Assembly (NCBI RefSeq): GCF_900105415.1
Contig: NZ_FNSM01000001.1
Coordinates: forward strand, 1,674,001-1,738,000
Reading direction: 5' to 3'
Source of the DNA: Streptomyces sp. TLI_105
Lineage (GTDB): Bacteria; Actinomycetota; Actinomycetes; Streptomycetales; Streptomycetaceae
DNA: 64,000 nucleotides
Below, piece after piece: positions 34,238 to 61,399 of this stretch; the first letter of the stretch is position 1; each line of letters begins with the position of its first letter. The notes below the pieces were generated by a model. The model saw nothing but the letters and a program-made list of their open reading frames with translations. It had not been told where the DNA came from and did no database searches. The position numbers were made by a program, and so were the translations under genes.

Positions 34238-34256
34238 TTTCAACGAACTGTTGAAA
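34238..34256. promoter_or_regulatory. Shared operator (TCAAC-N5-GTTGA type) at allB
   Basis: TTTCAAC-GAACT-GTTGAAA has perfect 7-bp arms and lies 33 bases upstream of the allB start. A further half-site TTCAAC is at 34227-34232. The same arms and spacing recur upstream of aceB, the OHCU decarboxylase gene and the catalase gene. Confidence 0.65.
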
Positions 34257-34334
34257 AGGAGTCTTCACTTCCGAGCGAGGGGTCGTCAAGGGCACACTTC
34301 CAGCATCGGCCGCCGAGGGACCCGCCTTAGAGGT

Positions 34335-34349
34335 TTCCACAAAGTGGAA
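34335..34349. promoter_or_regulatory. Shared IclR-type operator (TTCC-N7-GGAA) between allB and allR
   Basis: TTCCAC-AAA-GTGGAA is a perfect 6+3+6 palindrome in the allB-allR divergent region. The aligned 15-bp sites TTCCACCATGAGGAA (aceB) and TTCCGCAATACGGAA (hyi) share its frame, so a common regulator is likely. Confidence 0.6.
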
Positions 34350-34533
34350 TGGAAATTTCGTACAGTAGAAGGTAGCTCTACACATGCGAGCCGGACCCGG
34401 ACCGCTCCGGGCCGTCACCTACACCGGACAAACACCCCCTGACCGGCGCTGACGCCAGTACCGGGGCCGTGTGCCCCGGTCGGCGGCCCGGTAGGCTGCT
34501 GCCTTGCCCGCCTGCCCCGAAAGGACCGTTGAC

Positions 34534-35340
34534 GTGCCGACGTCCAGCGCCAGCACCACCGACGCCGCCAAGCCCGCCGCGAGCGGGGGCGTCCAGTCCC
34601 TTGAGCGCGCCTTCGACCTCCTGGAGCGGATGGCCGACGCCGGGGGCGAGGTAGGGCTGAGCGAGCTCTCCGCCAGCAGCGGACTTCCGCTCCCCACCAT
34701 CCACCGCCTGATGCGCACCCTCGTCGCCTGCGGCTACGTGCGCCAGCAGCCCAACCGCCGCTACGCCCTCGGCCCCCGGCTCATCCGGCTCGGCGAGTCC
34801 GCCTCCCGCCTCCTCGGCACCTGGGCCCGCCCCTACCTGGCGCGGCTCGTCGAGGAGACCGGCGAGACCGCGAACATGGCGCTGCTCGACGGAGACGAGA
34901 TCGTGTACGTCGCGCAGGTGCCGTCCAAGCACTCCATGCGCATGTTCACCGAGGTCGGCCGCCGGGTCCTGCCGCACTCGACCGGCGTCGGCAAGGCGCT
35001 CCTGGCGCACACGCCGGCGGAGGAGGTACGGGCGCTGCTCGCCCGCACCGGCATGCCGGCCGCCACCGAGAAGACCATCACCACGCCGGACGGCTTCCTC
35101 GACGCGCTCGTGGCGGTCCGCGAGACGGGCTACGCGGTCGACGACAACGAGCAGGAGATAGGAGTCCGCTGCCTCGCGGTCTCCGTCCCCGACTCCCCCA
35201 CCGCGGCGGCCATCTCCATCTCGGGCCCGGCCGGCCGGGTCACCGAGGCGGCCACCGAGAAGATCGTCCCGATCCTCCAGGAAGTGGCCCGCGAACTGTC
35301 GGCGGCCCTGGCGAACACCTCGGGCAACGGCCAGGGCTGA
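34534..35340 (+). CDS. allR: IclR family regulator of allantoin catabolism
   Basis: 268 residues from GTG 34534. Winged helix at about 22-85 (SLERAFDLLERMADAGGEVG, PLPTIHRLMRTLVACGYVRQ) followed by the IclR effector domain (ANMALLDGDEIVYVAQVPSK, LPHSTGVGKALLAHTPAEEV, DDNEQEIGVRCLAVSVPD). It is divergent from allB-alc, as AllR is in Streptomyces, where it represses this pathway. Ligand (allantoate or glyoxylate) not shown by sequence. A GTG 30 bases upstream is less well placed. Confidence 0.85.
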   Translation: MPTSSASTTDAAKPAASGGVQSLERAFDLLERMADAGGEVGLSELSASSGLPLPTIHRLMRTLVACGYVRQQPNRRYALGPRLIRLGESASRLLGTWARPYLARLVEETGETANMALLDGDEIVYVAQVPSKHSMRMFTEVGRRVLPHSTGVGKALLAHTPAEEVRALLARTGMPAATEKTITTPDGFLDALVAVRETGYAVDDNEQEIGVRCLAVSVPDSPTAAAISISGPAGRVTEAATEKIVPILQEVARELSAALANTSGNGQG

Positions 35341-35636
35341 GCCCCTCGTGGGGTCCGGCATCGACGGCGTGATCGAGGTGCGCGGGCCCGGCGGCCGCTG
35401 GGAGTCCTCCCTCGACCCGCCGGAGTCCGCGCTCCGGCGCGACCGGCACGCCCGGGAGGCCCTCTTCGGCTACGGCGGGGCCCTCCAGGTGGAACGGCCC
35501 CTGTTCGACCATCGAGGATGCCCGGACGGCGATGCGGGAACGGGCCGCCGTCCACGGCGACGAGAACGTCCGCCTGGTCGTCCGGTTCGGCTGACGGCGT
35601 ACGTCCGGGCTCGGGGCGGACGGTGACGCCGGGCCG
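35341..35636 (+). other. Possible decayed reading frame after allR
   Basis: The plus frame 35348-35626 begins IDGVIEVRGPGGRWESSLDP, which resembles the start of small Streptomyces proteins, but soon becomes Arg/Pro/Gly-rich and unconvincing. I regard it as a possible remnant only. Confidence 0.3.
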
Positions 35637-36305
35637 TCAGAGCCCCGGCGCACGCGGTGACACCAGGCCCGATTCGTAGGCCAGCACGACGAGTTGGGCC
35701 CGATCGCGGGCCCCGATCTTCGCCATGGCCCGGTTGACGTGGGTCTTCGCGGTCATCGGCGTGATCACCATGCGGTCGGCGATCTCGTCGTTGGACAGGC
35801 CCCGCGCGACCAGGGCGACGGCCTCGCGTTCACGGTTGGTCAGCTCCTCGAGACCGGCTCCGGCGCCCGTCTCGTAGGGCTCGGAGACGTACCGGTCGAT
35901 GAGCCTGCGCGTGATCGACGGGGCGAGGAGGGCGTCACCGCGCGCCGCGACCCGTACGGCGTGCAGGAAGTCCTCCGGCAGGATGTCCTTGACCAGGAAC
36001 CCGGCGGCGCCGGCGCGCAGCGCCTCGAAGACGTACTCGTCCAGGCCGTAGTTGGTCAGGATGACCACGTGCACCCCGGCCAGAGCCGGATCGGCGGCGA
36101 CCCGCCGGGTCATCTCCACGCCGTCCACGACCGGCATCCGGATGTCGACAAGAGCGATGTCGGGCAGGCACTGCCCGGCCAGCGCCAGGCCCTCCCGCCC
36201 GTCGCCGGCCTCCCCCACCACCTCGATGTCGTCCTCCAGGTCGAGGAGCGCGCGGAAACCGCTGCGGATGAGCGGCTGGTCGTCGACCAGCAGGACGCGG
36301 ATCAC
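35637..36305 (-). CDS. NarL/LuxR-type response regulator
   Basis: 222 residues. Receiver with VDDQPLIRSGF, phosphorylation Asp in IALVDIRMPVVDGV (about 54), VILTNYGLDEYVFEALRAGA and LVKDILPE; LuxR-type output LTNREREAVALVARGLSNDE with TPMTAKTHVNRAMAKIGARD. GTG 36305 overlaps the kinase stop by 4 bp. It is the likely binder of the twin palindromes upstream of the kinase gene, but that is inference. Confidence 0.9.
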   Translation of the reverse strand: MIRVLLVDDQPLIRSGFRALLDLEDDIEVVGEAGDGREGLALAGQCLPDIALVDIRMPVVDGVEMTRRVAADPALAGVHVVILTNYGLDEYVFEALRAGAAGFLVKDILPEDFLHAVRVAARGDALLAPSITRRLIDRYVSEPYETGAGAGLEELTNREREAVALVARGLSNDEIADRMVITPMTAKTHVNRAMAKIGARDRAQLVVLAYESGLVSPRAPGL

Positions 36306-37429
36306 GAGGTCCGCTCCAGGGGGAGCCGGGCCCGGACGGTGAAGCCGCCCTCCGTGCGCGGCCGCGCGCTCAGGCCGCCGCCGAGGGCGGTGACCCGTTC
36401 GCGCATCCCGAGCAGCCCCGTGCCGGGTGCCGGCACGGAGTCCGGCGCCGCCTTCCCGTCGTCGTCGACCCGTACGGTCAGGGCGTCGGGACGGCAGTCG
36501 ATCCGTACCGAGGCCGTGGCCGCGTCCGCGTGACGGGCGATGTTGGTGAGCGACTCCTGGACGATCCGGTAGACGGTCCTGTCCACCGCGACCGGCACGT
36601 CGTGCCGCTCGCCCTCGATCGTCAGCGTGGCGTCCAGACCGGTCAGCCGGGCCCGCGCCACCAGGCCCGGAACGTCGTCGAGGCCGCGCGGCGGGGCCGT
36701 GTCGTCGTCGCGCAGCGCCTCCAGGGTCGCCCGCAGTTCCCGGGTCGCCTCCCGCCCGGCCTCCTGGATCGCGAGCAGCGCCTCCGGCACCTGCTCGCCG
36801 CGCCGGCGGGCCACGTGGACCGCGACCTCGGACTGCACCTTGATGATCGAGATCTGGTGGGTGAGCGAGTCGTGCAGCTCGCGCGCGATGCGCAGCCGCT
36901 CCTCGTCGGCGCGGCGCCGCGCGGTCTCCTCCCGGGTGCGCTCGGCCTCGTCCGCCCGCCGCTCGGCCTGCCTCAGCGCCTCCCCCGCGGCGCCGGCGGC
37001 GACCAGCCAGGCCAGCTCCAGGGCGCCGCGGGCCCGCGCGAACGCCTCGCCCGTGTCGTGCAGGCCCGAGACCAGCGCCGCCACCGGCAGGGCGGCGAGC
37101 ACGACCACGCTCACGGCGACCGTGACGGCGCGGTGCCCCGCCCGTACGGCCGCGTACACCGCGAACAGGTACGCGACGGCCGGCACGTCGAAACCGGCCG
37201 CCTGAGAACCGGCCGCGCACAGCCCGGTCACGACCAGGACGGCCACGGGAGCGCGGCGGCGCGCGACGAGGGCCAGTCCACCGGCGGCGAGGAGCGCATG
37301 GCCGAGCAGGCCGGGGCCGTCGGCCGAGTGCTCCCCGGAAGCCCCGGTGAGCAGCAGTGCCGCCGCCACGCCGACGGCGATCACCCCGTCGACGACACCG
37401 TCCGGGACACCGAACCGTCCTCTGATCAT
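36302..37429 (-). CDS. NarL-type sensor histidine kinase
   Basis: 375 residues. Four or five N-terminal membrane helices (to about 150), coiled coil rich in Arg/Glu, phosphoacceptor ARELHDSLTHQISIIKVQSE, and a HATPase domain (RIVQESLTNIARHADA, TGLLGMRERVTALGGGLSAR). Divergent from the DUF6223 gene across a region with two palindromes. Confidence 0.9.
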   Translation of the reverse strand: MIRGRFGVPDGVVDGVIAVGVAAALLLTGASGEHSADGPGLLGHALLAAGGLALVARRRAPVAVLVVTGLCAAGSQAAGFDVPAVAYLFAVYAAVRAGHRAVTVAVSVVVLAALPVAALVSGLHDTGEAFARARGALELAWLVAAGAAGEALRQAERRADEAERTREETARRRADEERLRIARELHDSLTHQISIIKVQSEVAVHVARRRGEQVPEALLAIQEAGREATRELRATLEALRDDDTAPPRGLDDVPGLVARARLTGLDATLTIEGERHDVPVAVDRTVYRIVQESLTNIARHADAATASVRIDCRPDALTVRVDDDGKAAPDSVPAPGTGLLGMRERVTALGGGLSARPRTEGGFTVRARLPLERTS

Positions 37430-37485
37430 GCGCGCACCCTAGCCGCGTGGGGGTTGGGGCGGATCCCGCTCGCGGAGGAGGCCGT

Positions 37486-37507
37486 GACTACCGCGGACGC
37501 GGTAGTC
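37486..37507. promoter_or_regulatory. First of twin palindromes upstream of the DUF6223 gene
   Basis: GACTACCGCG-GA-CGCGGTAGTC has perfect 10-bp arms. With the next element it forms a pair whose centres are 30 bp apart, about three helical turns. Confidence 0.6.
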
Positions 37508-37517
37508 CGGCCGGTTC

Positions 37518-37535
37518 CTGCCGCGTCCGCGGCAG
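37518..37535. promoter_or_regulatory. Second of twin palindromes upstream of the DUF6223 gene
   Basis: CTGCCGCG-TC-CGCGGCAG has perfect 8-bp arms and shares CCGCG-N2-CGCGG with the first. It lies in the divergent promoter region of the kinase gene and DUF6223 gene. Confidence 0.6.
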
Positions 37536-37625
37536 CGCGAAGTGACCACGTCCGCCGGACGACGGGCGGCCGGTCCGGTGGCCATGCTCGGGTGGTCCCG
37601 TTCCCCCGAGGAGAAGGAGCACCCC

Positions 37626-38054
37626 ATGTCGGTCCGCACCGTGCTCGCCATGACCGGAGCCGTCCTGATCGGCGGTCTCGCGCTCGCCGTGCCGGCGGCC
37701 GCCGAAGCCGCCGTCCAGCCGGTCGCCGCGAGCGTCTACACCCTGAGCGTCGGCCGCGTCGGAGCCTCCGTGGCCGCGCTGGTCGGCCTCCTCGGAGCGG
37801 TCAACGGCGGCCTCGCCCTGGCCCGCACGACGGGTCGGGGCCGCCTCCGCACCTGGGCCCGCCGGAACGGTTCCGCCACGGCTCTCGCGGCCGGGCCGAT
37901 CGCCGTGGTCGTCGGGACGGCGGTCGCGGTCACCGCCGACGGAGGCCTCGGCACCGGCAACGGTCTCGGCGGCGCGTACGTCGCCGTGCTGGTGGGCCTG
38001 GTCGCGGTCGCCCTCGGGTGGCGGGCCCGCTCCCGGGCCCGCCGAACCGGATGA
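37626..38054 (+). CDS. DUF6223 family membrane protein
   Basis: 142 residues from ATG 37626, after GAGGAGAAGGAG. A signal-like first helix (about 5-26), then three hydrophobic segments: VGRVGASVAALVGLLGAVNG, ATALAAGPIAVVVGTAVAVT and GAYVAVLVGLVAVALGW. The DUF6223 repeat is recognisable. Probably a target of the neighbouring two-component system. Its last codons form the first copy of a 32-bp tandem repeat. Confidence 0.75.
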   Translation: MSVRTVLAMTGAVLIGGLALAVPAAAEAAVQPVAASVYTLSVGRVGASVAALVGLLGAVNGGLALARTTGRGRLRTWARRNGSATALAAGPIAVVVGTAVAVTADGGLGTGNGLGGAYVAVLVGLVAVALGWRARSRARRTG

Positions 38055-38136
38055 CCGGCCCGCCTCAGGCCCGCCGAGCCGGATGACCGGCCCGCCTCAG
38101 ACCCGCCGAACCGGATGACCGGCGCCCGCCTCAGGC
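38041..38136. repeat. 32-bp tandem repeat, three copies
   Basis: Copies start at 38041, 38073 and 38105, each GCCGA-A/G-CCGGATGACCGG followed by C/G-CCCGCCTCAG. They differ at only a few bases. The first copy overlaps the end of the DUF6223 gene and the last reaches the end of the ABC ATPase gene, so the two convergent genes share this linker. Confidence 0.75.
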
Positions 38137-38811
38137 CCGTACCGACTCCGTCAGGCGGCCGTCCTGGACCGTCACCGTGTGGTCCGTGCGGGCCAGGTGC
38201 GTGCGGTCGTGGGTGACCAGGACCGTCGCCGTCCCGCGCTCGGCCGTCAGCGCGGCGAGGAGGTCCATGACCGCCGCCCCCCGCTCGTGGTCCAGGGCGC
38301 TCGTCGGCTCGTCGACCAGGAGGACGGACGGCTCGTTCATCAGCGCCCGCGCGATGTTCACGCGCTGCCGCTGACCGCCCGACAGCTGGTGCGGCCGCCG
38401 GTGGGCCTGGTCCGCGAGGCCCACCGCGTCGAGGAGGCCCAGGGCCCGGTCCCGTACCGCCTTCGGGGAGCGTCCCGACAGATGGGCCATCACCTGCAGC
38501 TGCTCCGCCGCGCTCAGCGAGGGCAGCAGATTGGGCTGCTGGAAGACGATCCCGATGTGCTCGCGGCGCAGCTCCGCCTTGGCTGCGGGGGTGAGCGCCC
38601 CCGTGTCCGTCCCGGCGACGACGACCCGGCCCTCGTCCGGGGTCACCAGGGTGGCGGCGACCGCGAGGAGGCTGGACTTGCCGGAGCCGGAGGGCCCGAC
38701 GACGGCCGTGAGCGTGCCGGCGGGGACGGTGAGGGAGACGGCGTCGAGGGCGGTGAGCCGGCCGTCGCCGTCGGGGTAGGTGAGGGTGACGGCGTCGAGG
38801 ACGAGGCTCAT
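38131..38811 (-). CDS. ABC exporter ATP-binding protein (MacB/LolD type)
   Basis: 226 residues. Walker A GPSGSGKSS, Q-loop VFQQPNLLPSLSA, signature LSGGQRQRVNIARAL, Walker B VLLVDEPTSALD and VTHD switch are all intact. The size and motifs match LolD/MacB-type ATPases working with an FtsX-like permease. ATG 38811 overlaps the permease stop by 4 bp. Confidence 0.92.
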   Translation of the reverse strand: MSLVLDAVTLTYPDGDGRLTALDAVSLTVPAGTLTAVVGPSGSGKSSLLAVAATLVTPDEGRVVVAGTDTGALTPAAKAELRREHIGIVFQQPNLLPSLSAAEQLQVMAHLSGRSPKAVRDRALGLLDAVGLADQAHRRPHQLSGGQRQRVNIARALMNEPSVLLVDEPTSALDHERGAAVMDLLAALTAERGTATVLVTHDRTHLARTDHTVTVQDGRLTESVRA

Positions 38812-39884
38812 CGGGCGCTCCCGAGGGCGGTGAGGGGGTCGACGGCGGTGATCCGCCGGATGGACAGGGCGGCGCCGAGGACACCGAGGACGACGATCAC
38901 GGCGGCCGGCCCGAGGACGGTGAGCGGTTCCAGGACGAAGGGCACGTTCCCGCCGCTGACGAGGGCGCCGATCCCGACCGCGAGCGCGGTGCCGAGCAGG
39001 GTGCCGGCGGTGAGCATGAGGACGGCCTGCCCGAGGGCGTCCTTGAGGAGGTACGGGGTGGAGGCGCCGAGCGCCTTGAGGACGGCGACGTCGCCGCTGC
39101 GCTGGATGGTCCAGACGGTGAAGAAGGCTCCTATGACGAGCGCGGAGATGGCGAAGAGGAAGCCGCGCATCAGCTGCAGCGAGCCGTTCTCGGCCTGGTA
39201 GGACCCTATGGCGGTGAGGGCCCCGTCGAGGGTGCGGGCCTCGGTGCCGGCGGCCTTGTCGCCGGCCGCCCAGTCGACGCCGTCGCCGCCGAGCGCGATG
39301 ACGGTGGCCTGTTCCTGCGAGGCGGGCCCGCTGTGGCCGAGCTCCTGCCAGTCGTCGAGGGAGGTCCACACCACGGGCGTGTGGCTGTACGAGGCGTCGC
39401 CCGCGACCGCGGCGACGGTGACCTCCAGCGGGCCGAGGCGGACGGTGTCACCGGCGCGCACGGCCAGCTCGTCCGCCGCCGACTCGGACAGGACCGCCTT
39501 CCCGGCGCCGACGGCGCCGGGGGCGAGTCCCGCGGCCGGTTCCGTACCGAAGGCGGAGACGGCGGCGGTGCGGTCCCCGGCGGCGGCGTTGAGGGTGCGG
39601 ATGCCGAGCGGATCGGCCTTCGTCACCCCGGGTCGCTCCGCCCAGCCGCGCCACTGCTCCTCCGTCACCGTCGAGTTGGTGAAGGAGACCGACTGCCCGG
39701 ACGGCGGCGCCGCGAAGGCCAGCCGGTCGGCGGGCAGACCGGTGATCGCGGAGACGTTCTCTCGCGCGAGTCCGGCGGTCAGCCCGGACAGCAACCCCAC
39801 GAGCAGCGTGATCAGCACGATCACGGTGCCCATGAGGGTGAAACGCCCCTTGGCGAATCTCAGGTCTCTCCATGCCACGAACAT
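38808..39884 (-). CDS. FtsX-like ABC permease
   Basis: 358 residues from ATG 39884. One N-terminal helix (about 18-38: GTVIVLITLLVGLLSGLTAG), a large external domain (about 45-235), then three C-terminal helices with the FtsX pattern (DVAVLKALGASTPYLLKDAL, ...). Acts in envelope stress or export rather than import. Divergent from a two-component system, an arrangement common for systems that answer to cell-wall antibiotics. Confidence 0.88.
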   Translation of the reverse strand: MFVAWRDLRFAKGRFTLMGTVIVLITLLVGLLSGLTAGLARENVSAITGLPADRLAFAAPPSGQSVSFTNSTVTEEQWRGWAERPGVTKADPLGIRTLNAAAGDRTAAVSAFGTEPAAGLAPGAVGAGKAVLSESAADELAVRAGDTVRLGPLEVTVAAVAGDASYSHTPVVWTSLDDWQELGHSGPASQEQATVIALGGDGVDWAAGDKAAGTEARTLDGALTAIGSYQAENGSLQLMRGFLFAISALVIGAFFTVWTIQRSGDVAVLKALGASTPYLLKDALGQAVLMLTAGTLLGTALAVGIGALVSGGNVPFVLEPLTVLGPAAVIVVLGVLGAALSIRRITAVDPLTALGSAR

Positions 39885-39996
39885 GCCGACCAGAGTGGTC
39901 GGCGAGGCGCCCCACGGGCATCGCGCCACGGATGGCTCCGCAATCAAACTTTCGGTTGAGTCCGGATCGTCGCCCGATGCCTACGCTGGAGGGATC

Positions 39997-41247
39997 ATGG
40001 ATCCCCGCTCTCTCACCCCCGCCCTGCGCGCGCTGCGCCTCTGTCTGCACCTCCTCATGGCGGGGCTGCTCGTCCTGGCGGCGGTACGGGCGGACTCGGC
40101 CGCCGGGACGGTCATGGCGGTGGTCATGGGCGCGGTCTACGCGGCCGGCTCGTACCTGCCGTCCGTGCGGAGCTCGCAGCGCGCCGCCGCCGCGTGGCTG
40201 GCGGTCCTCGGAGCGTCCTGGCTCGGGCTGCTCTGGCTCACCCCGGAAGCGCTCTGGCTGGCCTTCCCCCTGTACTTCCTCCAGCTGCACCTGCTGCCCA
40301 CGCGCTGGTCGCTGCCGGCCGTGGCGCTGACGGCGGGCGCGGCGATCCTCTCGTACGTGGGACACGGCGCCGCGCTCAATCCGGGGGTCTTCATCGGGCC
40401 GCTGCTCGGTGCGGCGGTCGCGGTGGCGACGGTCCTCGGCTACCAGGCGCTGTACCGGGAGAGCGAGCGCCGGCGCCGGCTCATCGAGGAGCTGATCGAG
40501 ACGCGGGCGGAACTGGCGGCGGCGGAGCGGCACGCGGGGACGCTCGCCGAGCGGGAGCGGCTCGCGCGGGAGATCCACGACACGCTCGCGCAGGGCCTGT
40601 CCTCGATCCAGCTGCTGCTGCGGGCGGCCGAGCGGGTGCTCCCGCCGGACTCCCCCGCCGCGGGCCACATCGGCCGGGCCCGTGAGGCGGCGCAGGACAA
40701 CCTGGCGGAGGCGCGGCGCTTCGTCCGGGCGCTCTCGCCGCCGGACCTGGAGCACGGCTCCCTCGCGGCGGCGCTGGAGCGGCTGTGCGAGCCGGGTGCC
40801 GGGCCGCCCCCGGAGGGGCCTGCCGGTGCGAACCCGTACGAGCCGCCCCCGGAGGGCCCGTCCGGTGCGCACCCGTACGGGCCGGGGGGCGGCCCTCGGG
40901 TCCGGTTCTCGGTGAGCGGCACGCCGGTCGAGCTGCCGACCCCGTACGAGGTGGCGCTGCTGCGGATCGCGCAGTCGGCGCTCGCGAACACGGTGCGGCA
41001 CGCCTCGGCCTCGCGGGCGGAGATCACCTTGTCGTTCATGGACGCGTCGGTGACCCTGGACGTGGTCGACGACGGCCGGGGTTTCGACCCCGCGTCCGTA
41101 CGCCCCTCCTCGGACGGCGGTTTCGGGCTTCCGGCGATGCGCTCGCGGGCGGAGTCGCTGGGCGGCACGTTCACCGTCGAGTCGGCGCCCGGCCAGGGCA
41201 CCGCCGTCGCCGTCTCCCTCCCCCTCCCCGCTGGAGCGTCCGCATGA
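39997..41247 (+). CDS. NarL-type sensor histidine kinase with duplicated linker
   Basis: 416 residues from ATG 39997, after GGAGGG. Membrane helices in the first 150 residues, phosphoacceptor AREIHDTLAQGLSSIQLLLR, and ATPase motifs RIAQSALANTVRHASA and GGFGLPAMRSRAESLGG. Between them is an inserted Pro/Gly-rich linker in which PPPEGP-A/S-GA-N/H-PY-E/G occurs twice. Divergent from the ABC exporter operon across 112 bp. Confidence 0.9.
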   Translation: MDPRSLTPALRALRLCLHLLMAGLLVLAAVRADSAAGTVMAVVMGAVYAAGSYLPSVRSSQRAAAAWLAVLGASWLGLLWLTPEALWLAFPLYFLQLHLLPTRWSLPAVALTAGAAILSYVGHGAALNPGVFIGPLLGAAVAVATVLGYQALYRESERRRRLIEELIETRAELAAAERHAGTLAERERLAREIHDTLAQGLSSIQLLLRAAERVLPPDSPAAGHIGRAREAAQDNLAEARRFVRALSPPDLEHGSLAAALERLCEPGAGPPPEGPAGANPYEPPPEGPSGAHPYGPGGGPRVRFSVSGTPVELPTPYEVALLRIAQSALANTVRHASASRAEITLSFMDASVTLDVVDDGRGFDPASVRPSSDGGFGLPAMRSRAESLGGTFTVESAPGQGTAVAVSLPLPAGASA

Positions 41248-43173: not shown

Positions 43174-43188
43174 TCAACAAACCATTGA
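43174..43188. promoter_or_regulatory. Shared operator (TCAAC-N5-GTTGA type) upstream of aceB
   Basis: TCAAC-AAACC-ATTGA matches the spacing and arms of the site at allB with one arm mismatch. It is 162 bases upstream of the aceB start. Confidence 0.5.
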
Positions 43189-43190: not shown

Positions 43191-43205
43191 TTCCACCATG
43201 AGGAA
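43191..43205. promoter_or_regulatory. Shared IclR-type operator (TTCC-N7-GGAA) upstream of aceB
   Basis: TTCCAC-CAT-GAGGAA, one mismatch from a perfect palindrome, directly follows the previous site. It aligns base for base with the sites at allR and hyi. Confidence 0.55.
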
Positions 43206-43349: not shown

Positions 43350-44972
43350 ATGTCCGCACCAGCGCCGTCCCCCCTGGCCGTCGTCGATGCCGAGCCCCTC
43401 CCGCGTCAGGAGGAGGTGCTCACCGAGGCCGCCCTGGCCTTCGTCGCCGAACTGCACCGGCGGTTCACCCCGCGCCGGGACGAGCTCCTCGCCCGCCGAG
43501 CGGAGCGCCGCGCCGAGATCGCCCGTACGTCCACCCTGGACTTCCTTCCGGAGACCGCCGCGATCCGCGCCGACGACTCCTGGAAGGTCGCGCCGGCCCC
43601 GGCGGCCCTGAACGACCGCCGCGTCGAGATCACCGGCCCGACCGACCGCAAGATGACGATCAACGCGCTCAACTCCGGCGCGAAGGTCTGGCTCGCCGAC
43701 TTCGAGGACGCCTCGGCGCCGACCTGGGAGAACGTCGTCCTCGGCCAGGTCAACCTGATCGACGCGTACACCCGGAAGATCGACTTCACGGACCCGCGCT
43801 CGGGCAAGTCGTACGCCCTGAAGCCCGCCGACGAGCTCGCCACCGTCGTCATGCGGCCGCGCGGCTGGCACCTGGAGGAGCGTCACCTCACCTTCGACGG
43901 ACGCCCGGTGCCCGGCGCGCTCGTCGACTTCGGCCTGTACTTCTTCCACAACGCCCAGCGTCTGATCGACCTCGGCAAGGGCCCGTACTTCTACCTCCCG
44001 AAGACGGAGTCGCACCTGGAGGCCCGCCTCTGGAACGACATCTTCGTCTTCGCGCAGGACTACGTCGGCATCCCGCGGGGCACCGTCCGCGCCACGGTCC
44101 TCATCGAGACCATCACGGCCGCGTACGAGATGGAGGAGATCCTCTACGAGCTCCGCGACCACGCCGCCGGCCTGAACGCGGGCCGCTGGGACTACCTCTT
44201 CTCCATCGTCAAGAACTTCCGTGACGGCGGAGCCAAGTTCGTCCTGCCGGACCGCAACGCGGTCACGATGACCGCCCCGTTCATGCGCGCGTACACCGAA
44301 CTCCTGGTGCGCACCTGCCACAAGCGCGGCGCGCACGCGATCGGCGGCATGGCGGCGTTCATCCCGTCCCGCAAGGACGCCGAGGTCAACAAGGTCGCCT
44401 TCGAGAAGGTCAAGGCCGACAAGGACCGCGAGGCCGGCGACGGCTTCGACGGCTCCTGGGTCGCCCACCCCGACCTGGTCCCGATCGCGATGGCCTCCTT
44501 CGACGCGGTCCTGGGCGACAAGCCCCACCAGAAGGACCGCCTTCGCGAGGACGTCTCCGTCGCGCCCGGCGACCTCATCGCCATCGACTCGCTCGACGCC
44601 AAGCCCACCTACGAGGGGCTGGTCAGCGCCGTGCAGGTCGGCACGCGCTACATCGAGGCGTGGCTGCGCGGCCTCGGCGCCGTCGCCATCTTCAACCTGA
44701 TGGAGGACGCGGCCACCGCCGAGATCTCCCGCTCCCAGATCTGGCAGTGGATCAACGCGGGCGTGGTCTTCGAGAACGGCGAGAAGGCCACCCCCGAGCT
44801 GGCCCGCAAGGTCGCCGCGCAGGAGCTCGACGCCATCCGCGCCGAGATCGGCGAGGAGGCCTTCGCGGCCGGCAAGTGGCAGCAGGCGCACGACCTGCTC
44901 CTGCACGTCTCGCTCGACGCGGACTACGCGGACTTCCTCACCCTTCCCGCGTACGAGCAGCTGGTCGGCTGA
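43350..44972 (+). CDS. aceB: Malate synthase A
   Basis: 540 residues, the length of the A form. It condenses glyoxylate with acetyl-CoA to malate. The signature [16 protein letters not shown] lies near 276-291, [20 protein letters not shown] near 117-136, and [19 protein letters not shown] near 330. ATG 43350 follows GAAGGAAGTGACAG. It consumes the glyoxylate made from allantoin, and its upstream region carries both operator motifs of that pathway. No isocitrate lyase gene is adjacent. Confidence 0.95.
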
Positions 44973-55143: not shown

Positions 55144-55191
55144 GGCGGTGCTTCCTTCATTCCTCGGGGATGGTTCGGGCACGGCAGGACC

Positions 55192-56610
55192 CTAGGAGGA
55201 TTTGAGTGCCGGAGCGGTGTGACGGCTCCGGGTGCCGAGATGGTGGAAGAAAAGGTTCAGCAGGACGGCCACGAGCGCGCCCGCGCTGATGCCGGAGCCG
55301 AGCACCGTCTGCGCCCAGGCGGGGAAGCCGGCGTAGAAGGTGGGCGCGGCGAGCGGGATGATGCCCGCTCCGAGCGCGACGGCCACCAGGATGATGTTGG
55401 AGCTGTCGTCGAGTCCGGCCTCGGACAGGGTACGGATGCCGCTGACCGCGATCGAGCCGAAGAGGACGATGCCGGCGCCGCCGAGGACGGGCATCGGGAC
55501 CATGGAGACGACCGCGCCGAGGACGGGGAAGGCGCCGAGGACGAGGAGGGCGCCGCCGGCGACGGCGACCACGTACCGGGAGCGGACCCGGGTCAGCGAG
55601 ACGACGCCGACGTTCTGCGCGAAGGCGGAGGTCGGGAAGCCGCCGAAGACGGGGCCGAGCAGGGTGGCGATGCCGTCGGTGCGCAGGCCGCGGGTGATGG
55701 TCTTCCCGTCGCTGCGGCGCTCGCAGATCTCGCCGAGGGCGAGCATGCCGGCGCTGGACTCGGTCATGAGGACCAGCATCACGATGCACAGGGAGAGGAT
55801 CGCGGCGGGCTGGAACTCGGGGGCGCCGAAGGCGAAGGGGGCGGGCAGGGCCGCGACGGGAGCCTCGCGCAGGGCGCTGAAGTCGGCCATGCCGAAGGGG
55901 ATCGCGGCGAGGGTGCCGATGAGGAGTCCGAGCAGCAGGGCGATCTGCTTGACGAAGCCCTTGCCGAAGCGCTGGAAGAGCAGGATGACGACGAGCGTGA
56001 AGGCGGCGAGCGCCAGGTACTTCATGGAGCCGAAGTCGTCGGCGGTCTTGTCGCCGCCCTGGGCCCAGCCGACGGGCACGGGCATGAGGGTGACCCCGAT
56101 GAGGGTGATCACGACGCCGGTGACGAGCGGCGGGAAGAAGCGCAGCAGCCTGCCGAAGAAGGGTCCGACGGCGAGGCAGAAGACTCCGGCGACCATCACC
56201 GCGCCGTAGATGGCGGGGAGTTGGTGTCCGGTGGCGCTGGTCTCGGCGATGGCGAGCATCGGGGCGATGCCGGCGGACGAGGCGGCGTTGACGAACGGGA
56301 GCCGGTTGCCGGCGAAGCGTCCGAGGCCGAGGGTCTGCAGGATGGTCGCGCAGCCGGCGATGAGCAGGCTGGCCGCGATGAGCCGTGTCATTCCTGCGGC
56401 GTCCAGGCCGACGGCCTGGCCGATGATGAGCGGAGGGGTGACGACGCCGGCGTACATGGCGGCGATGTGCTGGAGTGCCGCGGGGACGAGCCGCGAGGCG
56501 GGGAGCTTCTCGTCCACCGGGTGGCACTCGACCGACGCCGAGGCGGTGGTGGACGGAAGGGTGGAACACGGGCCTTCGGCGTTCGCCGGCCCCTTTGCAG
56601 GCTGAGCCAT
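55192..56610 (-). CDS. NCS2 purine permease, second copy
   Basis: 472 residues. Same layout as the first permease: ALQHIAAMYAGVV (about 40-52) and MTESSAGMLALGEI (near 265), where the usual ESTADM reads ESSAGM, a change likely to alter substrate preference. Roughly half the residues are shared with the first copy by eye. It begins 23 bases after a hairpin that follows uricase. Confidence 0.88.
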   Translation of the reverse strand: MAQPAKGPANAEGPCSTLPSTTASASVECHPVDEKLPASRLVPAALQHIAAMYAGVVTPPLIIGQAVGLDAAGMTRLIAASLLIAGCATILQTLGLGRFAGNRLPFVNAASSAGIAPMLAIAETSATGHQLPAIYGAVMVAGVFCLAVGPFFGRLLRFFPPLVTGVVITLIGVTLMPVPVGWAQGGDKTADDFGSMKYLALAAFTLVVILLFQRFGKGFVKQIALLLGLLIGTLAAIPFGMADFSALREAPVAALPAPFAFGAPEFQPAAILSLCIVMLVLMTESSAGMLALGEICERRSDGKTITRGLRTDGIATLLGPVFGGFPTSAFAQNVGVVSLTRVRSRYVVAVAGGALLVLGAFPVLGAVVSMVPMPVLGGAGIVLFGSIAVSGIRTLSEAGLDDSSNIILVAVALGAGIIPLAAPTFYAGFPAWAQTVLGSGISAGALVAVLLNLFFHHLGTRSRHTAPALKSS

Positions 56611-56632
56611 TGTTGTTCCCTCCGGTCCGGTT

Positions 56633-56670
56633 CACCGGCCCCGCCCGACTGCGGGCGGGCGGGGCCGGTG
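56633..56670 (-). terminator. 15-bp perfect hairpin after uricase
   Basis: CACCGGCCCCGCCCG and CGGGCGGGGCCGGTG flank an 8-base loop, 14 bases beyond the uricase stop and 23 before the permease start. It should end the OHCU-HIU-uricase transcript or reduce read-through into the permease gene. Confidence 0.7.
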
Positions 56671-56683
56671 ACGCGGATGCCGC

Positions 56684-57607
56684 TTAGAGGTTGGTCATGT
56701 CGACCGGGATCTGCGCCGTGGCTCCGTCGCGGAGGACGGTGGCCTCGATGAGGCCGTACATGCGGTCGGCGGCGTAGTAGACCTCGTTGTCGTTCTTCAG
56801 GCCGAAGGGCTCGAGGTCCACCAGGAAGTGGTGCTTGTTCGGGAGCGAGAAGCGGACTTCGTCGATCTCCGAGCGGTGGTTGATGATGCGCGTGGCCATC
56901 TGGTACAGCGTCTGCTGGAGGGAGTACGAGTACGTCTCCGAGAAGGCCTCGAGCATGTGCTTCCTGGTCTGCTCGTAGGACCGCTCCCAGTTGGGCATGC
57001 GCTGGTCGTCGTCGGTCCAGTTGAACCGCCAGCGACCGGACACCTGGGTGGCCAGGATGCGGTCGTACGCCTCCTGGAGCGTCGTGTACTGGTCCTTGAT
57101 GTAGCCCCAGAACTCCGAGTTGGTGGAGTTCATGACGACGAGGTCCTTGAGGCCGGAGATGACCTCCCACTTCTCGCCGTCGTAGGTGATCTGCGAGACG
57201 CGGGTCTCCTGGCCCTTGCGGGCGAAGGAGTGGTTGACCTCGTCGGCGCCGATGAACTTGGAGTTGGCGTCGGAGGAGGCGATGCGCTCCCAGGCGTACT
57301 CCTCGATCCGGATGCGCGCCTTCTTGATCGGCTCCTGGCTCGTCACGAAGTGGCGGGCGAGGTGGATGCCGAACTGCTCGGCGGACTCGATGCCGTACTC
57401 CTTGGCGAACGCGAAGACGGTGTTCTTCGTCGTGTCGGTGGGGAGGCAGTGGGCGTTGGAGCCGGTGAGGTGGACGTCGTCGAGGTCGCCGGAGAGGGCG
57501 ACGGAGACGTTCAGGTCCTTGATGTGGTGGGTGGCGCCGTCCCGCGTGATCTTGACGACGCGGTTCTCTGCTTTGCCGTACTGGTTCTGGCCGAGAATCG
57601 TGGGCAT
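56684..57607 (-). CDS. Urate oxidase (uricase)
   Basis: 307 residues, cofactor-free uricase. Active-site Lys in NRVVKITRDG (near 19), Thr in LPTDTTKNTVFAFAKEYGI (near 58-66), HFVTSQEP, and the C-terminal NKHHFLVDLEPFG with the catalytic His. It oxidises urate to 5-hydroxyisourate and releases H2O2. ATG 57607 follows GAGGGAG, which lies in the end of the HIU hydrolase gene five bases upstream. Confidence 0.95.
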   Translation of the reverse strand: MPTILGQNQYGKAENRVVKITRDGATHHIKDLNVSVALSGDLDDVHLTGSNAHCLPTDTTKNTVFAFAKEYGIESAEQFGIHLARHFVTSQEPIKKARIRIEEYAWERIASSDANSKFIGADEVNHSFARKGQETRVSQITYDGEKWEVISGLKDLVVMNSTNSEFWGYIKDQYTTLQEAYDRILATQVSGRWRFNWTDDDQRMPNWERSYEQTRKHMLEAFSETYSYSLQQTLYQMATRIINHRSEIDEVRFSLPNKHHFLVDLEPFGLKNDNEVYYAADRMYGLIEATVLRDGATAQIPVDMTNL

Positions 57608-57612
57608 GTCTG

Positions 57613-58002
57613 CTAGCTCCCTCGGTAAACGGAGTAGCCGAACGGGTTGAGCAGCAGCGGTACGTGGTAGTGCTCGCCCGGCTTGACGGCGAACGTGATC
57701 GCCACCTCCGGGAAGAACGCACCGCTGTCCCTTACGCGGGGGGCGTCCTGCTGCGCCTCGGCTTGCTTCTTGGCGAAGTACGTCTCGGTCTCGAAGTCGA
57801 GACGCACGTGGGTGGTTTCTTCCGGCAGCGCCGGCAGGTCCTTGCAGCGCCCGTCCGCGTCGGTGGCGGAGCCGCCGAGCGTGACCCACTGCGCGTCGGA
57901 GCCGCTGCGGGCCGCGAGCGTGATGGCCACGCCCTCGGCCGGGCGGCCGATGCTGGTGTCCAGGATGTGCGTGGACACCGAGGCGGTGGTGTCGGTGCTC
58001 AT
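57613..58002 (-). CDS. 5-hydroxyisourate hydrolase (transthyretin-like)
   Basis: 129 residues. VSTHILDTSIGRPAEGVAIT at the start and the C-terminal YHVPLLLNPFGYSVYRGS are the two signatures of the family, with His, Arg and the final YRGS of the active site. It converts 5-hydroxyisourate to OHCU. Overlaps the OHCU decarboxylase gene by 4 bp. Confidence 0.95.
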   Translation of the reverse strand: MSTDTTASVSTHILDTSIGRPAEGVAITLAARSGSDAQWVTLGGSATDADGRCKDLPALPEETTHVRLDFETETYFAKKQAEAQQDAPRVRDSGAFFPEVAITFAVKPGEHYHVPLLLNPFGYSVYRGS

Positions 58003-58550
58003 GCGGAGCTCTCTTCCTCGGAGGTCTCGGAGGTCTCGGGGTTCTCGGTGGTCTCCACGAGACGGGTCAGCCGGATGCGGTTGATCTTGCCCAGTTCGGT
58101 GCGGACGATCTCCCGCTCCGTCTCGGGCGAGTTCCCGATCCGCTCCCGGACCGCGTCGCGCATCTGCTCGCCGGTCCTGCCGGTGGCGCAGATGAGGAAG
58201 ACATGACCGAACTTCTCCTGATAGGCCAGGTTCAGTTCGAGCATCTCGGCCTTGAGCTCCGCGGAGGCGCCGGCCATCCCGCTCTGCTCGCGGGAGGAGG
58301 TCGGGTCCCCTGCCTTCGGACGACCGATCGGCGGGTGCCCCGCCATCGCCTCGGCCAGATCCTCGGCGGTCAGCTCGGCCATGGCGGCGTCGCTGGCGAG
58401 GAAGAGGGCTTCGGCGGTGGAGTACGGGCGCTGGGCGAGGACCTTGCTCCCCCACGCCGAACTGGAACACACCTCGTGGAGCGCGGCGACGGCCTCGCTG
58501 TCCGAGGAGGTGTTGAACCGGGTGAGGCCCGGTGTCGTACCTGAAGTCAC
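57999..58550 (-). CDS. OHCU decarboxylase
   Basis: 183 residues from GTG 58550 after GGAGG. LTRFNTSSDSEAVAALHEVC at the start and the catalytic GHPPIGRP near 71 with SREQSGM are diagnostic; EMLELNLAYQEKFGHVFLIC follows. It produces S-allantoin. The C-terminus is a Glu/Ser/Thr-rich tail (TTENPETSETSEEESSA). First gene of the urate operon; its promoter carries the shared TCAAC-N5-GTTGA motif. Confidence 0.93.
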   Translation of the reverse strand: MTSGTTPGLTRFNTSSDSEAVAALHEVCSSSAWGSKVLAQRPYSTAEALFLASDAAMAELTAEDLAEAMAGHPPIGRPKAGDPTSSREQSGMAGASAELKAEMLELNLAYQEKFGHVFLICATGRTGEQMRDAVRERIGNSPETEREIVRTELGKINRIRLTRLVETTENPETSETSEEESSA

Positions 58551-58624
58551 GGGAAGCCTCCGTGGCTGTTTTTCGCTGTGCGTCGGACGGGCTGCGGATA
58601 GCTAACGCCCTCCGCAACACAACG

Positions 58625-58639
58625 TCAACACTTTGTTGA
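58625..58639. promoter_or_regulatory. Shared operator (TCAAC-N5-GTTGA) of the OHCU-uricase operon
   Basis: TCAAC-ACTTT-GTTGA is a perfect 5+5 palindrome 75 bases upstream of the OHCU decarboxylase start and just beyond the terminator of the previous gene, so it belongs to this operon's own promoter. Confidence 0.6.
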
Positions 58640-58657
58640 AAACTCGGCCACACAAAA

Positions 58658-58685
58658 GCCGTCGTCCCGACATCTGGACGACGGC
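58658..58685 (-). terminator. Rho-independent terminator of the HTH gene
   Basis: On the minus strand GCCGTCGTCC-AGATGTCG-GGACGACGGC is followed by TTTTGTG, 20 bases after the stop of the HTH gene. It separates that gene from the urate operon. Confidence 0.8.
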
Positions 58686-58705
58686 TCCCGGCCACACATG
58701 ATCAA

Positions 58706-59092
58706 CTACTCGGCCTTGGCGGCCTTTTCCCTGTTCAGGGCGGTCTCCCGGTTCAGGTAGTTGTACACCGTGAAACGGCTGACGCCGAGCGCGCCCGCCA
58801 CCGTCTCCACCCCATGGCGCACCGAGAAGGCACCGCGCGCCTCCAGGATCCGGACGACCTCCTGCTTCGCCTTGCGGTCCAGTTCGGCCAGCGGCATCCC
58901 GTGCCGCCGTTCCATCGCCGCGAGGATGTGGTCCAGGGAGTCCGAAAGCTGGGGCAGGCGCACGGCGAGGACGTCCTCGCCCTCCCAGGACAGGACGACG
59001 TCGTCGCCCTCCGCCTGCGCGGGGACGAGCAGCTCGGCGCCCATGGCGTCGACCAGGGGCTTCACCGCCGCGACCAAGGGGTGCTCGCTCAC
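58706..59092 (-). CDS. Small helix-turn-helix regulator
   Basis: 128 residues. The C-terminal part has GVETVAGALGVSRFTVYNYL, a Fis/HTH_8-type recognition helix (about 97-118), after a helical segment (QEVVRILEARGAFSVRH). The N-terminal 70 residues (EDVLAVRLPQLSDSLDHILA) lack a known domain. It sits between the urate operon and the divergent hyi-glxR operon, so it is a candidate regulator of either. ATG overlaps the thiamine-binding-like gene by 4 bp. Confidence 0.7.
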   Translation of the reverse strand: MSEHPLVAAVKPLVDAMGAELLVPAQAEGDDVVLSWEGEDVLAVRLPQLSDSLDHILAAMERRHGMPLAELDRKAKQEVVRILEARGAFSVRHGVETVAGALGVSRFTVYNYLNRETALNREKAAKAE

Positions 59093-59343
59093 TTGCCGCC
59101 CTCCCCGATCACGTTCACCTGGAGCGAGACGCGCGTGGCGCCGGCCGCGAGCGACTCGCGCAGCAGGGCGTCGACGGCGGTGAGCACCGCGTCGGCGTCG
59201 CCTTCCGCCGTGTTGCCGAAGGGACCTACGTCCACCGCGTCCAGCTCGGCCGACTGGATGACCTCACGAGCCACGACCGCGTGCGCCGGCGCCTCGTCGA
59301 GGTCGAACGGCTCGGTCGTGAACTCCACTCTCAAACGCTCCAT
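59089..59343 (-). CDS. Thiamine-binding-like protein (DUF77/YqgV family)
   Basis: 84 residues. RVEFTTEPFDLDEAPAHAVV, VGPFGNTAEGDADAVLTAVD and TRVSLQVNVIGE have the alternating ferredoxin-like pattern of the small thiamine-binding (MTH1187/YqgV) family. It overlaps the HTH gene by 4 bp and diverges from hyi. Why a thiamine-binding-like protein lies here is unclear, but glyoxylate carboligase, the missing enzyme of the next pathway, uses thiamine diphosphate. Confidence 0.65.
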   Translation of the reverse strand: MERLRVEFTTEPFDLDEAPAHAVVAREVIQSAELDAVDVGPFGNTAEGDADAVLTAVDALLRESLAAGATRVSLQVNVIGEGGK

Positions 59344-59450
59344 GGCCCCACGCTACGGCCCCACCCGGCCGCGCGGGAGCCCCGGACCTGCGGGGACCCC
59401 TTGACAAGTGCGGCGCCCGCCTTGCAACATTCCGTCAGACAGAAACTTAC

Positions 59451-59465
59451 TTCCGCAATACGGAA
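59451..59465. promoter_or_regulatory. Shared IclR-type operator (TTCC-N7-GGAA) at hyi
   Basis: TTCCG-CAATA-CGGAA is a perfect palindrome 16 bases upstream of the hyi start and overlaps its ribosome binding site. A TTGACA hexamer lies at 59401-59406. It aligns with the sites at allR and aceB. Confidence 0.6.
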
Positions 59466-59480
59466 GGAGCGCCGCCCCTC

Positions 59481-60314
59481 ATGGGATACACGGACCAGCG
59501 CTTCGATGTGAACCTGTCGATCCTCTTCACGGAACTCCCGCTCCTGGAGCGCCCCGCGGCCGCCGCCGCGGCGGGCTTCACCGCGGTCGAGCTGTGGTGG
59601 CCCTGGATCGACACCGCCACCCCCGAGCAGAGCGAGCTCGACGCCCTCAAGAAGGCTCTTGAGGACGCCGGCACCCAGCTGGTGGGCCTGAACTTCTACG
59701 CCGGGCAGCTCCCCGGCCCGGACCGCGGAGCCCTCTCCGTGCCCGGGGAAGAGTCGGACCGCTTCCGCGCCAACATCGAGGTGGCCGCCGACTTCGCCGC
59801 CTCGGTCGGCTGCAAGGCGCTCAACGCCCTCTACGGCAACCGCGTCGAAGGCGTGGACCCGCAGATCCAGGACACCCTCGCCCTGGAGAACCTGGTGCTG
59901 GCCGCCCGCGCGGCCGACCGCATCGGTGCGATCCTCCTCGTCGAGACCCTCAACAAGCCGGAGTCGCCGCTCTACCCGCTGGTGAGCGCCCCCGCCGCGA
60001 TCGAGGTCATCGACAAGGTGAACGCGGCCACCGGCCTCGGCAACGCCAAGTTCCTCCTCGACGTCTACCACCTGTCGATGAACGGCGAGGACGTCAGCCA
60101 GGTCATCGCGGAGTACGCGGCCAAGACCGGCCACGTCCAGATCGCGGACAACCCGGGCCGTGGCGCGCCGGGCACCGGCGACCTGCCGCTCGAGCAGCTC
60201 CTCGACGAGCTGAAGAAGGCCGGTTACGACGGCTGGGTCGGCCTGGAGTACAAGGCCGCCGACGCCGCCGCTTCCTTCGAGTGGCTGCCCGCCGAGGCCC
60301 GCCCGGCCCGCTGA
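59481..60314 (+). CDS. hyi: Hydroxypyruvate isomerase (TIM barrel)
   Basis: 277 residues. Xylose-isomerase-like TIM barrel: FDVNLSILFTELPLLERPAA, GFTAVELWWPWIDTATPEQS, ILLVETLNKPESPLYPLVSA (catalytic Glu), NAKFLLDVYHLSMNGED and TGHVQIADNPGRGAPGTGDL. It interconverts hydroxypyruvate and tartronate semialdehyde. ATG 59481 follows GGAAGGAG. Co-transcribed with glxR, 47 bases apart. Confidence 0.9.
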   Translation: MGYTDQRFDVNLSILFTELPLLERPAAAAAAGFTAVELWWPWIDTATPEQSELDALKKALEDAGTQLVGLNFYAGQLPGPDRGALSVPGEESDRFRANIEVAADFAASVGCKALNALYGNRVEGVDPQIQDTLALENLVLAARAADRIGAILLVETLNKPESPLYPLVSAPAAIEVIDKVNAATGLGNAKFLLDVYHLSMNGEDVSQVIAEYAAKTGHVQIADNPGRGAPGTGDLPLEQLLDELKKAGYDGWVGLEYKAADAAASFEWLPAEARPAR

Positions 60315-60361
60315 CGCAGGCCCCCTCCCCGTATCACCTTGTTTTGAGAGGCACCCTCACC

Positions 60362-61252
60362 ATGAGCACTCTTCCCAAGATCGCGTGGATCGGCCTCGGC
60401 ATCATGGGCTCCCCCATGTCCGAGAACCTGATCAAGGCCGGCTACTCCGTCACCGGCTTCACCCTGGAGCAGGACAAGCTGGAGCGCCTGTCCGCCGCCG
60501 GCGGCACCGCAGCCGGCTCGATCGCCGAGGCCGTCAAGGACGCCGACGTCATCATCACGATGGTGCCCGCCTCCCCGCAGGTCGAGGCCATCGCCTACGG
60601 CCCCGACGGCATCCTGGAGAACGCCAAGCAGGGCGCGCTGATCGTGGACATGTCCTCGATCACCCCGCAGACCTCGGTCGACCTGGCGAAGAACGCCAAG
60701 GAGAAGGGCATCCGCGTCATCGACGCGCCCGTCTCCGGCGGCGAGGCCGGCGCCATCGAGGCCGTGCTCTCGATCATGGTCGGCGGCGAGCGGGCCGACT
60801 TCGACGAGGCCCTCCCGATCCTGGAGGCCCTCGGCAAGACCATCGTGCTCTGCGGCCCGCACGGCTCCGGCCAGACGGTGAAGGCCGCCAACCAGCTGAT
60901 CGTCGCCGTCAACATCCAGGCGTGCGCCGAGGCCGTGGTCTTCCTGGAGAAGTCGGGCGTGGACCTGAACGCCGCCCTCGACGTCCTCAACGGCGGTCTG
61001 GCCGGCTCGACCGTGCTGACCCGCAAGAAGGACAACTTCCTGAACCGGGACTTCAAGCCCGGCTTCCGGATCGACCTGCACCACAAGGACATGGGCATCG
61101 TCACCGACGCCGCCCGCAACGTCGGTGCGGCCCTCCCGGTCGGCGCGGTCGTCGCCCAGCTCGTCGCCTCGCTCCGCGCGCAGGGTGACGGCGGCCTGGA
61201 CCACTCGGCCCTGCTGCGCGCCGTCGAGCGCCTCTCCGGCCAGCAGGTCTGA
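60362..61252 (+). CDS. glxR: Tartronate semialdehyde reductase (2-hydroxy-3-oxopropionate reductase)
   Basis: 296 residues. NAD(P)-binding GLGIMGSPMSENLIKAGYSV (about 11-30), DAPVSGGEAGAIEAVLSIMV with the signature near 122, and the catalytic Lys in GQTVKAANQLIVAVNIQACA (near 171). It reduces tartronate semialdehyde to glycerate. Glyoxylate carboligase, which makes its substrate from glyoxylate, is not found in this window. Confidence 0.92.
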   Translation: MSTLPKIAWIGLGIMGSPMSENLIKAGYSVTGFTLEQDKLERLSAAGGTAAGSIAEAVKDADVIITMVPASPQVEAIAYGPDGILENAKQGALIVDMSSITPQTSVDLAKNAKEKGIRVIDAPVSGGEAGAIEAVLSIMVGGERADFDEALPILEALGKTIVLCGPHGSGQTVKAANQLIVAVNIQACAEAVVFLEKSGVDLNAALDVLNGGLAGSTVLTRKKDNFLNRDFKPGFRIDLHHKDMGIVTDAARNVGAALPVGAVVAQLVASLRAQGDGGLDHSALLRAVERLSGQQV

Positions 61253-61384
61253 TCCCTGGGGCCTGTCTTCCGGGCCAGGCCCCAGCCCCTTCCCGGGGCC
61301 CCTGATTTCCGGTCGGCGGCGGCGCTGACAACCTGTCCTGTCGCGCCCAGGCGTCGCCGCCGACCGGAACACCACACTTCATTT

Positions 61385-61399
61385 TCAACAAACTGTTGA
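61385..61399. promoter_or_regulatory. Shared operator (TCAAC-N5-GTTGA) upstream of the catalase gene
   Basis: TTTTCAAC-AAACT-GTTGACGG: the core TCAAC-AAACT-GTTGA is perfect and lies 66 bases upstream of the catalase start. Its spacer (AAACT) nearly equals those at aceB (AAACC) and allB (GAACT). Confidence 0.65.

Follow-up and report, generated by a model that had tools for sequence, protein, structure and literature searches.

The 64,000-bp stretch of the Streptomyces sp. TLI_105 genome analysed here (the window) carries the palindrome TCAAC-N5-GTTGA upstream of genes for urate, allantoin and glyoxylate metabolism and of a catalase gene. We consider it likely that this palindrome is the operator of a dimeric HTH_22 repressor encoded at 58706–59092 on the reverse strand, which probably acts together with a DUF77-like sensor encoded at 59089–59343 of the same strand and works alongside AllR, an IclR-family regulator with a proposed operator of its own, TTCC-N7-GGAA. 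Binding, repression, the assembly of the dimer and its subunits, and the ligand are what we infer here from four features of the sequences, namely the conservation of the sites, their co-distribution with HTH_22, a domain fusion, and a link between the type of recognition helix and the presence of the site.

The first-pass annotation of the window had claimed the palindrome at four units, and all four copies were found. Three are perfect, located at 34240–34254 in the divergent region between allB and allR, at 58625–58639 upstream of the uraD-uraH-uricase operon, and at 61385–61399 upstream of the catalase gene, while the copy upstream of aceB (43174–43188) has one mismatch, its right arm reading ATTGA. 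With their flanks the four sites read TTTCAACGAACTGTTGAAA (the extended allB/allR site), CATCAACAAACCATTGAAC, CGTCAACACTTTGTTGAAA and TTTCAACAAACTGTTGACG. The further statement that the palindrome occurs nowhere else in the window is true of perfect sites only, because an additional one-mismatch match, probably a chance occurrence, lies within a long open reading frame (ORF) at 26955–26969. A TCAAC half-site 12 bp ahead of the allB operator gives an overlapping two-mismatch copy (34228–34242), which may provide an extra contact. Among 30 half-sites composed of the same letters, TCAAC alone formed perfect N5 inverted repeats in the window (three versus none for each of the other 29), and when spacer lengths of 0–12 were compared, matches appeared at spacer 5 only. 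Allowing up to two mismatches, the window contained 30 matches as against 8.8 expected from shuffles, the two-mismatch ones being given no weight. The whole genome of 8.88 Mb has perfect copies at 10 places, three of which fall inside 27 kb of the window; two others (L001 and L007) were rejected as regulatory sites, both lying inside coding regions and being probably due to chance. With one mismatch allowed, the genome has 186 places versus 82 for the control, and one-mismatch sites on their own are therefore weak evidence. Over 61 Streptomyces genomes the extended form TTCAAC-N5-GTTGA gave 373 matches versus 90 for the reversed pattern (strands were summed, so sites extended on both sides are counted twice), and the forward count was higher in 58 genomes, equal in two and lower in one.

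Conservation at orthologous promoters supported a single operator common to the urate, allantoin, glyoxylate and catalase units, as the first-pass annotation had proposed, naming the lack of such conservation as evidence that would speak against it; the site was found to be kept at allB, uraD, catalase and aceB. The counts for allB, aceB and allR are based on the 80 Streptomyces loci of an AllR search, whereas those for uraD, catalase and ureA come from the best-scoring loci (30 each, own genome included) and thus represent a favourable sample; rows with less than 45% identity, a late alignment start or less than 150 bp of upstream sequence were dropped from the upstream counts. A perfect site was present in all 77 allB upstream regions (reversed control 0) and in all 78 allR upstream regions, while 63 of 66 aceB regions had a one-mismatch copy and none a perfect one (reversed control 0). 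The uraD gene, detected in all 61 Streptomyces genomes, had a perfect site in 30/30 loci (reversed control 0), and so had the catalase gene (30/30, control 1). No TCAAC site of their own was found in the 74 upstream regions of the allantoicase gene or in the 15 of hyi, and none at up to one mismatch in 30 gcl loci, three of which had a two-mismatch match (in the gcl loci L245, L247 and L254 the gene start is misplaced by a contig end). Lacking a site at up to one mismatch, gcl and hyi were ruled out as targets.

As judged from conserved upstream sites, the putative regulon extends beyond the four units to a cyclophilin-like gene and, in certain species, to ureABC. The cyclophilin-like gene (PF04126) was preceded by the site in all 24 genomes in which it occurs (control 0; the count leaves aside two additional fragments of a single gene); one perfect site (L008/L159, G000:C1:4099243-4099257) lies just ahead of the gene, between the genes of cytochrome bd oxidase I and an aminotransferase. 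The site was also detected in 13 of the 30 ureA loci (control 1), and a perfect copy (L009/L129, G000:C1:7032026-7032040) is located 75 bp upstream of ureA in a ureABC operon (PF00547, PF00699, PF00449). Catalase and urease fit such a regulon since urate oxidation yields hydrogen peroxide and allantoicase yields urea. Outside Streptomyces, genome G106 has three distinct TTCAAC-N5-GTTGA places, one at uricase, one ahead of xanthine dehydrogenase-type genes, and a third flanked by a DUF3311/sodium-solute symporter pair on one side and an unknown ORF on the other. A 27-kb record of plasmid p3 of Streptomyces angustmyceticus (L457) was observed to carry catalase, a hyi-like TIM barrel protein, the DUF77-like gene (tbp) with the HTH_22 gene (hth), and uraD-uraH-pucL; both uraD and catalase have perfect sites there, and two short pieces of a thiamine-pyrophosphate enzyme occupy the place where gcl might be expected.

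The distribution of the HTH_22 protein tracks that of the operator, which favours the small HTH protein at 58706, one of the candidate binders put forward in the first-pass annotation. A sample of 394 genomes of the class contained close HTH_22 homologues (E ≤ 1e-11) in five genomes outside Streptomyces, which belong to four families, and in each of them a perfect site separates hth from the next urate gene. A sixth case is plasmid 10 of Tsukamurella tyrosinosolvens, where tbp-hth is divergent from uraD with a perfect site in between. In contrast, none of the 38 AllR orthologues from outside Streptomyces (58–69% identity) had TCAAC-N5-GTTGA with up to one mismatch within 400 bp upstream of allR; across the 220 kb of these loci there were five one-mismatch matches elsewhere and two control matches. 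The difference between 6/6 HTH_22 loci and 0/38 AllR loci corresponds to a Fisher p of 1.4e-7, a value that is uncorrected for phylogeny and counts G106 in both sets. HTH_22 was looked for in 27 of the outside AllR genomes and turned up in G106 alone.

A few Streptomyces genomes lack one of the two regulators. G221 has HTH_22 and the pathway genes, and no AllR was found in it at E ≤ 1e-90 or between allB and aceB (L384); perfect TCAAC sites are present at allB and uraD, not at aceB, and no TTCC-N7-GGAA was found at allB, aceB or uraD. In G010, AllR is present, HTH_22 is split over two frames, and the TCAAC site is missing from allR, allB and aceB and reduced to a one-mismatch copy at uraD, while uricase and uraD themselves and the TTCC-N7-GGAA at aceB are kept. 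G043 has AllR and no HTH_22; it has no TCAAC site at allR or aceB, keeps TTCC-N7-GGAA at aceB, and no allB was found near its allR. G211 and G257 likewise have AllR and no HTH_22, and neither motif occurs at the genes examined, a pattern which fits HTH_22 as the binder but does not help the assignment of TTCC-N7-GGAA to AllR. G257, where no allB was found near allR, and G335, which has neither AllR nor a close HTH_22, say little. In G031, uraD lies beside HTH_22 and has a perfect site. The perfect sites seen in genomes devoid of HTH_22 look like chance occurrences: that of G109 is inside a coding region, and of the two in G043 one neighbours a GDSL lipase gene.

The window HTH_22 protein, the proposed DNA-binding subunit, consists of 128 amino acids and matches PF13309 with 73.3 bits (gathering threshold 29.6; E 1.6e-20). 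HTH_22 was the only domain found by the profile search, PAS_6 (PF08348) not being detected. Its predicted model has a mean predicted local distance difference test score (pLDDT) of 86 and a helical C-terminal half, and no structure matched it at E ≤ 0.001 in a fold search. All 29 aligned sequences share the helix RFTVYNYLNR without variation. The overlapping tbp gene encodes an 84-amino-acid DUF77/thiamine-binding-like protein, the proposed sensor subunit, whose PF01910 match is marginal (26.1 bits, cutoff 24.9). Searching the sequences of solved structures yielded nothing useful for either protein. The two parts form one reading frame in G106, G371, G415 and G426 and are separate in G372, as in Streptomyces. 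A search with a fused protein gave 1208 hits; both domains were present in 111 of the 120 listed, and among these 120 no readable name states a tested function. For the predicted model of a fused homologue, P0105 (pLDDT 90), the top fold matches were the DUF77/MTH1187 structures 1yqh, 2eky and 1lxn (E ~1e-5).

The specificity of the HTH_22 domain was approached through 19 paralogous loci of 3.5–3.7 kb each from plasmid records, five originating from an earlier search and 14 chosen, with their helices unseen, to give a varied set out of the 60 records listed from a total of 161; the recognition helices were read by eye. TCAAC-type sites occurred in all four loci whose paralogue has the helix R-[FY]-T-[VI]-Y-N-Y-L and in none of the 15 with other helices. 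L460, L461 and L462 each have a perfect site, and the Variovorax locus L465 has two one-mismatch sites. Since the comparison of helices came after the sites of L460–L462 had been noticed, a fresh test is provided only by the 14 loci added later, of which one is of the [FY] type. At up to one mismatch, TCAAC gave 12 matches over the paralogue loci, compared with a mean of 1.2 and a maximum of five for the other 29 half-sites. A recognition code valid across the HTH_22 family is likely. L460, L461, L462 and L465 represent HTH_22 regulators in Rhodococcus, Streptomyces and Variovorax; L460, whose paralogue has PAS_6, and L465 adjoin amino-acid-type genes.

In almost all genomes inspected, HTH_22 lies near the urate genes, and its co-distribution with the site could therefore follow the urate operon, with an unlinked regulator binding the palindrome and HTH_22 merely travelling along. 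We regard this as unlikely. Such sites also accompany other genes where a paralogue carries the same helix, G010 keeps uricase and uraD while its HTH_22 is split and its sites decay, and G062, although a single case, has a uricase-like gene, no HTH_22 and not one TTCAAC-N5-GTTGA genome-wide.

AllR (34504–35340, forward strand; PF09339 and PF01614; the start may be at 34534) was the starting assumption for the TCAAC binder and was dropped in view of the 38 outside loci and of G221. The perfect site between allB and allR in every Streptomyces allR region, the retention of AllR in 60 of the 61 Streptomyces genomes (the exception, G050, is 82% complete) and the existence of a paper whose title links S. 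coelicolor AllR to allantoin genes (cited in PMC12772271) would all suit a palindrome serving as the AllR operator of the known Streptomyces allantoin regulon. However, AllR loci outside Streptomyces lack the site beside allR, G221 keeps perfect sites at allB and uraD without AllR, G010 possesses AllR and has no allB site, and gcl and hyi have TTCC-N7-GGAA instead of TCAAC. The evidence therefore speaks against the IclR protein at 34534, the other candidate from the window named in the first-pass annotation; AllR is probably not the binder of TCAAC-N5-GTTGA, and there is little chance that the palindrome is its operator.

AllR appears to have its own, different operator, which is likely TTCC-N7-GGAA. 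The window has this second palindrome upstream of allR (TTCCACAAAGTGGAA, 34335–34349), right behind the aceB operator (TTCCACCATGAGGAA, 43191–43205) and upstream of hyi (TTCCGCAATACGGAA, 59451–59465), all three being proposed AllR sites. In the form TTCCA-N5-TGGAA and with up to one mismatch it was found upstream of allR in 57/79 loci (control 0) and of aceB in 59/66 (control 2), and at both genes in three genomes outside Streptomyces. Of the 30 gcl loci, 25 likewise have TTCC-N7-GGAA upstream (control 0), and three of the five without it are those with misplaced starts. Against its assignment to AllR stand its presence upstream of allR in only three of the 38 outside loci, with 35 lacking it, and its absence from allB/allR in several Streptomyces.

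The position of the TCAAC sites relative to promoters varies. A TANNNT hexamer follows the right-arm TTGA by 17 or 18 bp in all 30 catalase and all 63 aceB regions, and in none in the opposite direction; in the window, the right arm overlaps the −35-like hexamers TTGAAC at aceB, with TAGTAT 17 bp further on, and TTGACG at catalase. The same test gave 0/30 at uraD, where the hexamer some 18 bp on reads TAGCTA or TAGCTG, 0/77 at allB, 0/24 at the cyclophilin-like gene and 0/13 at ureA. At allB and the cyclophilin-like gene the operator is nearer the gene start. Because the sites lie within promoters at varied positions, a repressor would fit better than an activator. It is very improbable that the palindrome is a promoter element, the −35 box of a particular sigma factor, since both arms are conserved and no TANNNT occurs at that spacing at allB or the cyclophilin-like gene, even though at aceB and catalase a −35-like hexamer falls on the right arm.

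With a dimeric HTH_22 repressor as the binder, each HTH_22 domain would read one TCAAC arm through the helix R-F-T-V-Y-N-Y-L. The repressor would sit on the −35 box (aceB, catalase, uraD) or near the gene start (allB, the cyclophilin-like gene) and block transcription, the binding of a purine-derived metabolite to the DUF77 part would lift the block, and AllR would work in parallel through TTCC-N7-GGAA. With some reserve, we lean towards a broader interpretation, by which the pair represents a novel kind of one-component regulator, a DUF77 sensor paired with or fused to HTH_22, which senses an intermediate of purine degradation and, with AllR at neighbouring operators, controls catalase, urease in some species, and the path that leads from urate to malate, to which xanthine dehydrogenase is added in one other family; R-[FY]-T-[VI]-Y-N-Y-L would then be the code for TCAAC arms throughout HTH_22.

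Several observations weigh against the HTH_22 repressor. No TCAAC operator is present at hyi, gcl or the allantoicase gene or ahead of tbp in Streptomyces, and the site is missing from aceB not only in G221 but also in G031, G037 and G055, where both regulators are present. Few Streptomyces genomes are without HTH_22 or AllR (G043, G211, G257 and G010; G221 and G335); in G043 the urate operon seems to be gone too, only a 36% match to 2-oxo-4-hydroxy-4-carboxy-5-ureidoimidazoline (OHCU) decarboxylase being left, and the absence of AllR from G221 is based on the E-value cutoff of the search and the allB-aceB interval. The cases outside Streptomyces are not all independent, as G106 and G371 belong to one genus and the intergenic sequence of G372 resembles that of Tsukamurella. 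Among the paralogues, the Variovorax locus has one-mismatch sites only and the sites of L461 are about 1 kb from the gene. Finally, the PF01910 match of the putative sensor is marginal, and the choice of a repressor over an activator is drawn from site position only.

No DUF77-HTH_22 regulator and no TCAAC-N5-GTTGA operator were found described in the open-access literature, to which the search was confined. A close likeness is to regulators combining PAS_6 with HTH_22. DauR is a YheO-type regulator of this sort. Like the window protein, the YheO/DauR-type proteins and Cj1387c have HTH_22 at the C-terminus, and TCAAC-type sites occur near some relatives. Cj1387c of Campylobacter jejuni, a YheO-like PAS-HTH protein, has been reported as a repressor of its neighbour (PMC4519771). 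The window protein differs in having no PAS_6, in its DUF77-like partner, which is encoded by a separate gene in Streptomyces, and in its proposed targets, which are urate, allantoin and glyoxylate genes. The putative sensor half resembles the MTH1187/DUF77 proteins (UPF0045, Thiamine_BP) by PF01910, and its fused homologue by predicted fold; here it is fused to or paired with a DNA-binding domain. Regulators of the MarR family of the HucR type control uricase genes; uricase control would thus be shared, while the HTH_22 protein belongs to a different family. The S. coelicolor AllR regulon overlaps in targets (allantoin genes, by the title of the 2015 paper), and its IclR-type regulator is encoded in the window; malate synthase is reportedly also among its targets. 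The difference from that regulon is that the proposed AllR site here is TTCC-N7-GGAA and TCAAC follows HTH_22.

Genes were assigned by Pfam/TIGRFAM profile matches of window ORF translations, and the functions given earlier to the four units (allantoinase, malate synthase, OHCU decarboxylase, 5-hydroxyisourate hydrolase, uricase and catalase) proved right. On the reverse strand, allantoinase is encoded by allB (32871–34205; TIGR03178 over cutoff; GTG start read from the sequence, longest ORF from 34418), followed by the allantoicase gene (31754–32941; PF03561, E 3.5e-87). The urate operon of the same strand begins with uraD, encoding OHCU decarboxylase (57999–58550; PF09349, E 2e-42), continues with uraH for the transthyretin-like 5-hydroxyisourate hydrolase (57613–57999, approximate start; PF00576 at residues 240–359 of the ORF 57613–58695), and includes the uricase gene (56684–57889; PF01014, E 8e-60; longest ORF, the true start probably being further downstream). 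The forward strand carries the malate synthase gene aceB (43350–44972; TIGR01344 over cutoff), the hydroxypyruvate isomerase-like hyi (59481–60314; TIGR03234 with 310 bits, below the cutoff of 353), a tartronate semialdehyde reductase gene (60281–61252; TIGR01505 over cutoff) and the catalase gene (61465–62922; PF00199, E 2e-190; ATG read from the sequence, longest ORF from 61396).

These results name a candidate regulator, binding site and sensor for actinobacterial urate breakdown, and they separate the TCAAC circuit from AllR, the regulator that one would naturally expect behind the allB and aceB promoters. A protein of the DUF77 family gains a concrete regulatory hypothesis, and the HTH_22 family a recognition code that can be tested. 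If true, catalase, which would deal with the peroxide of uricase, and urease, which would deal with the urea of allantoicase, would be placed under one switch.

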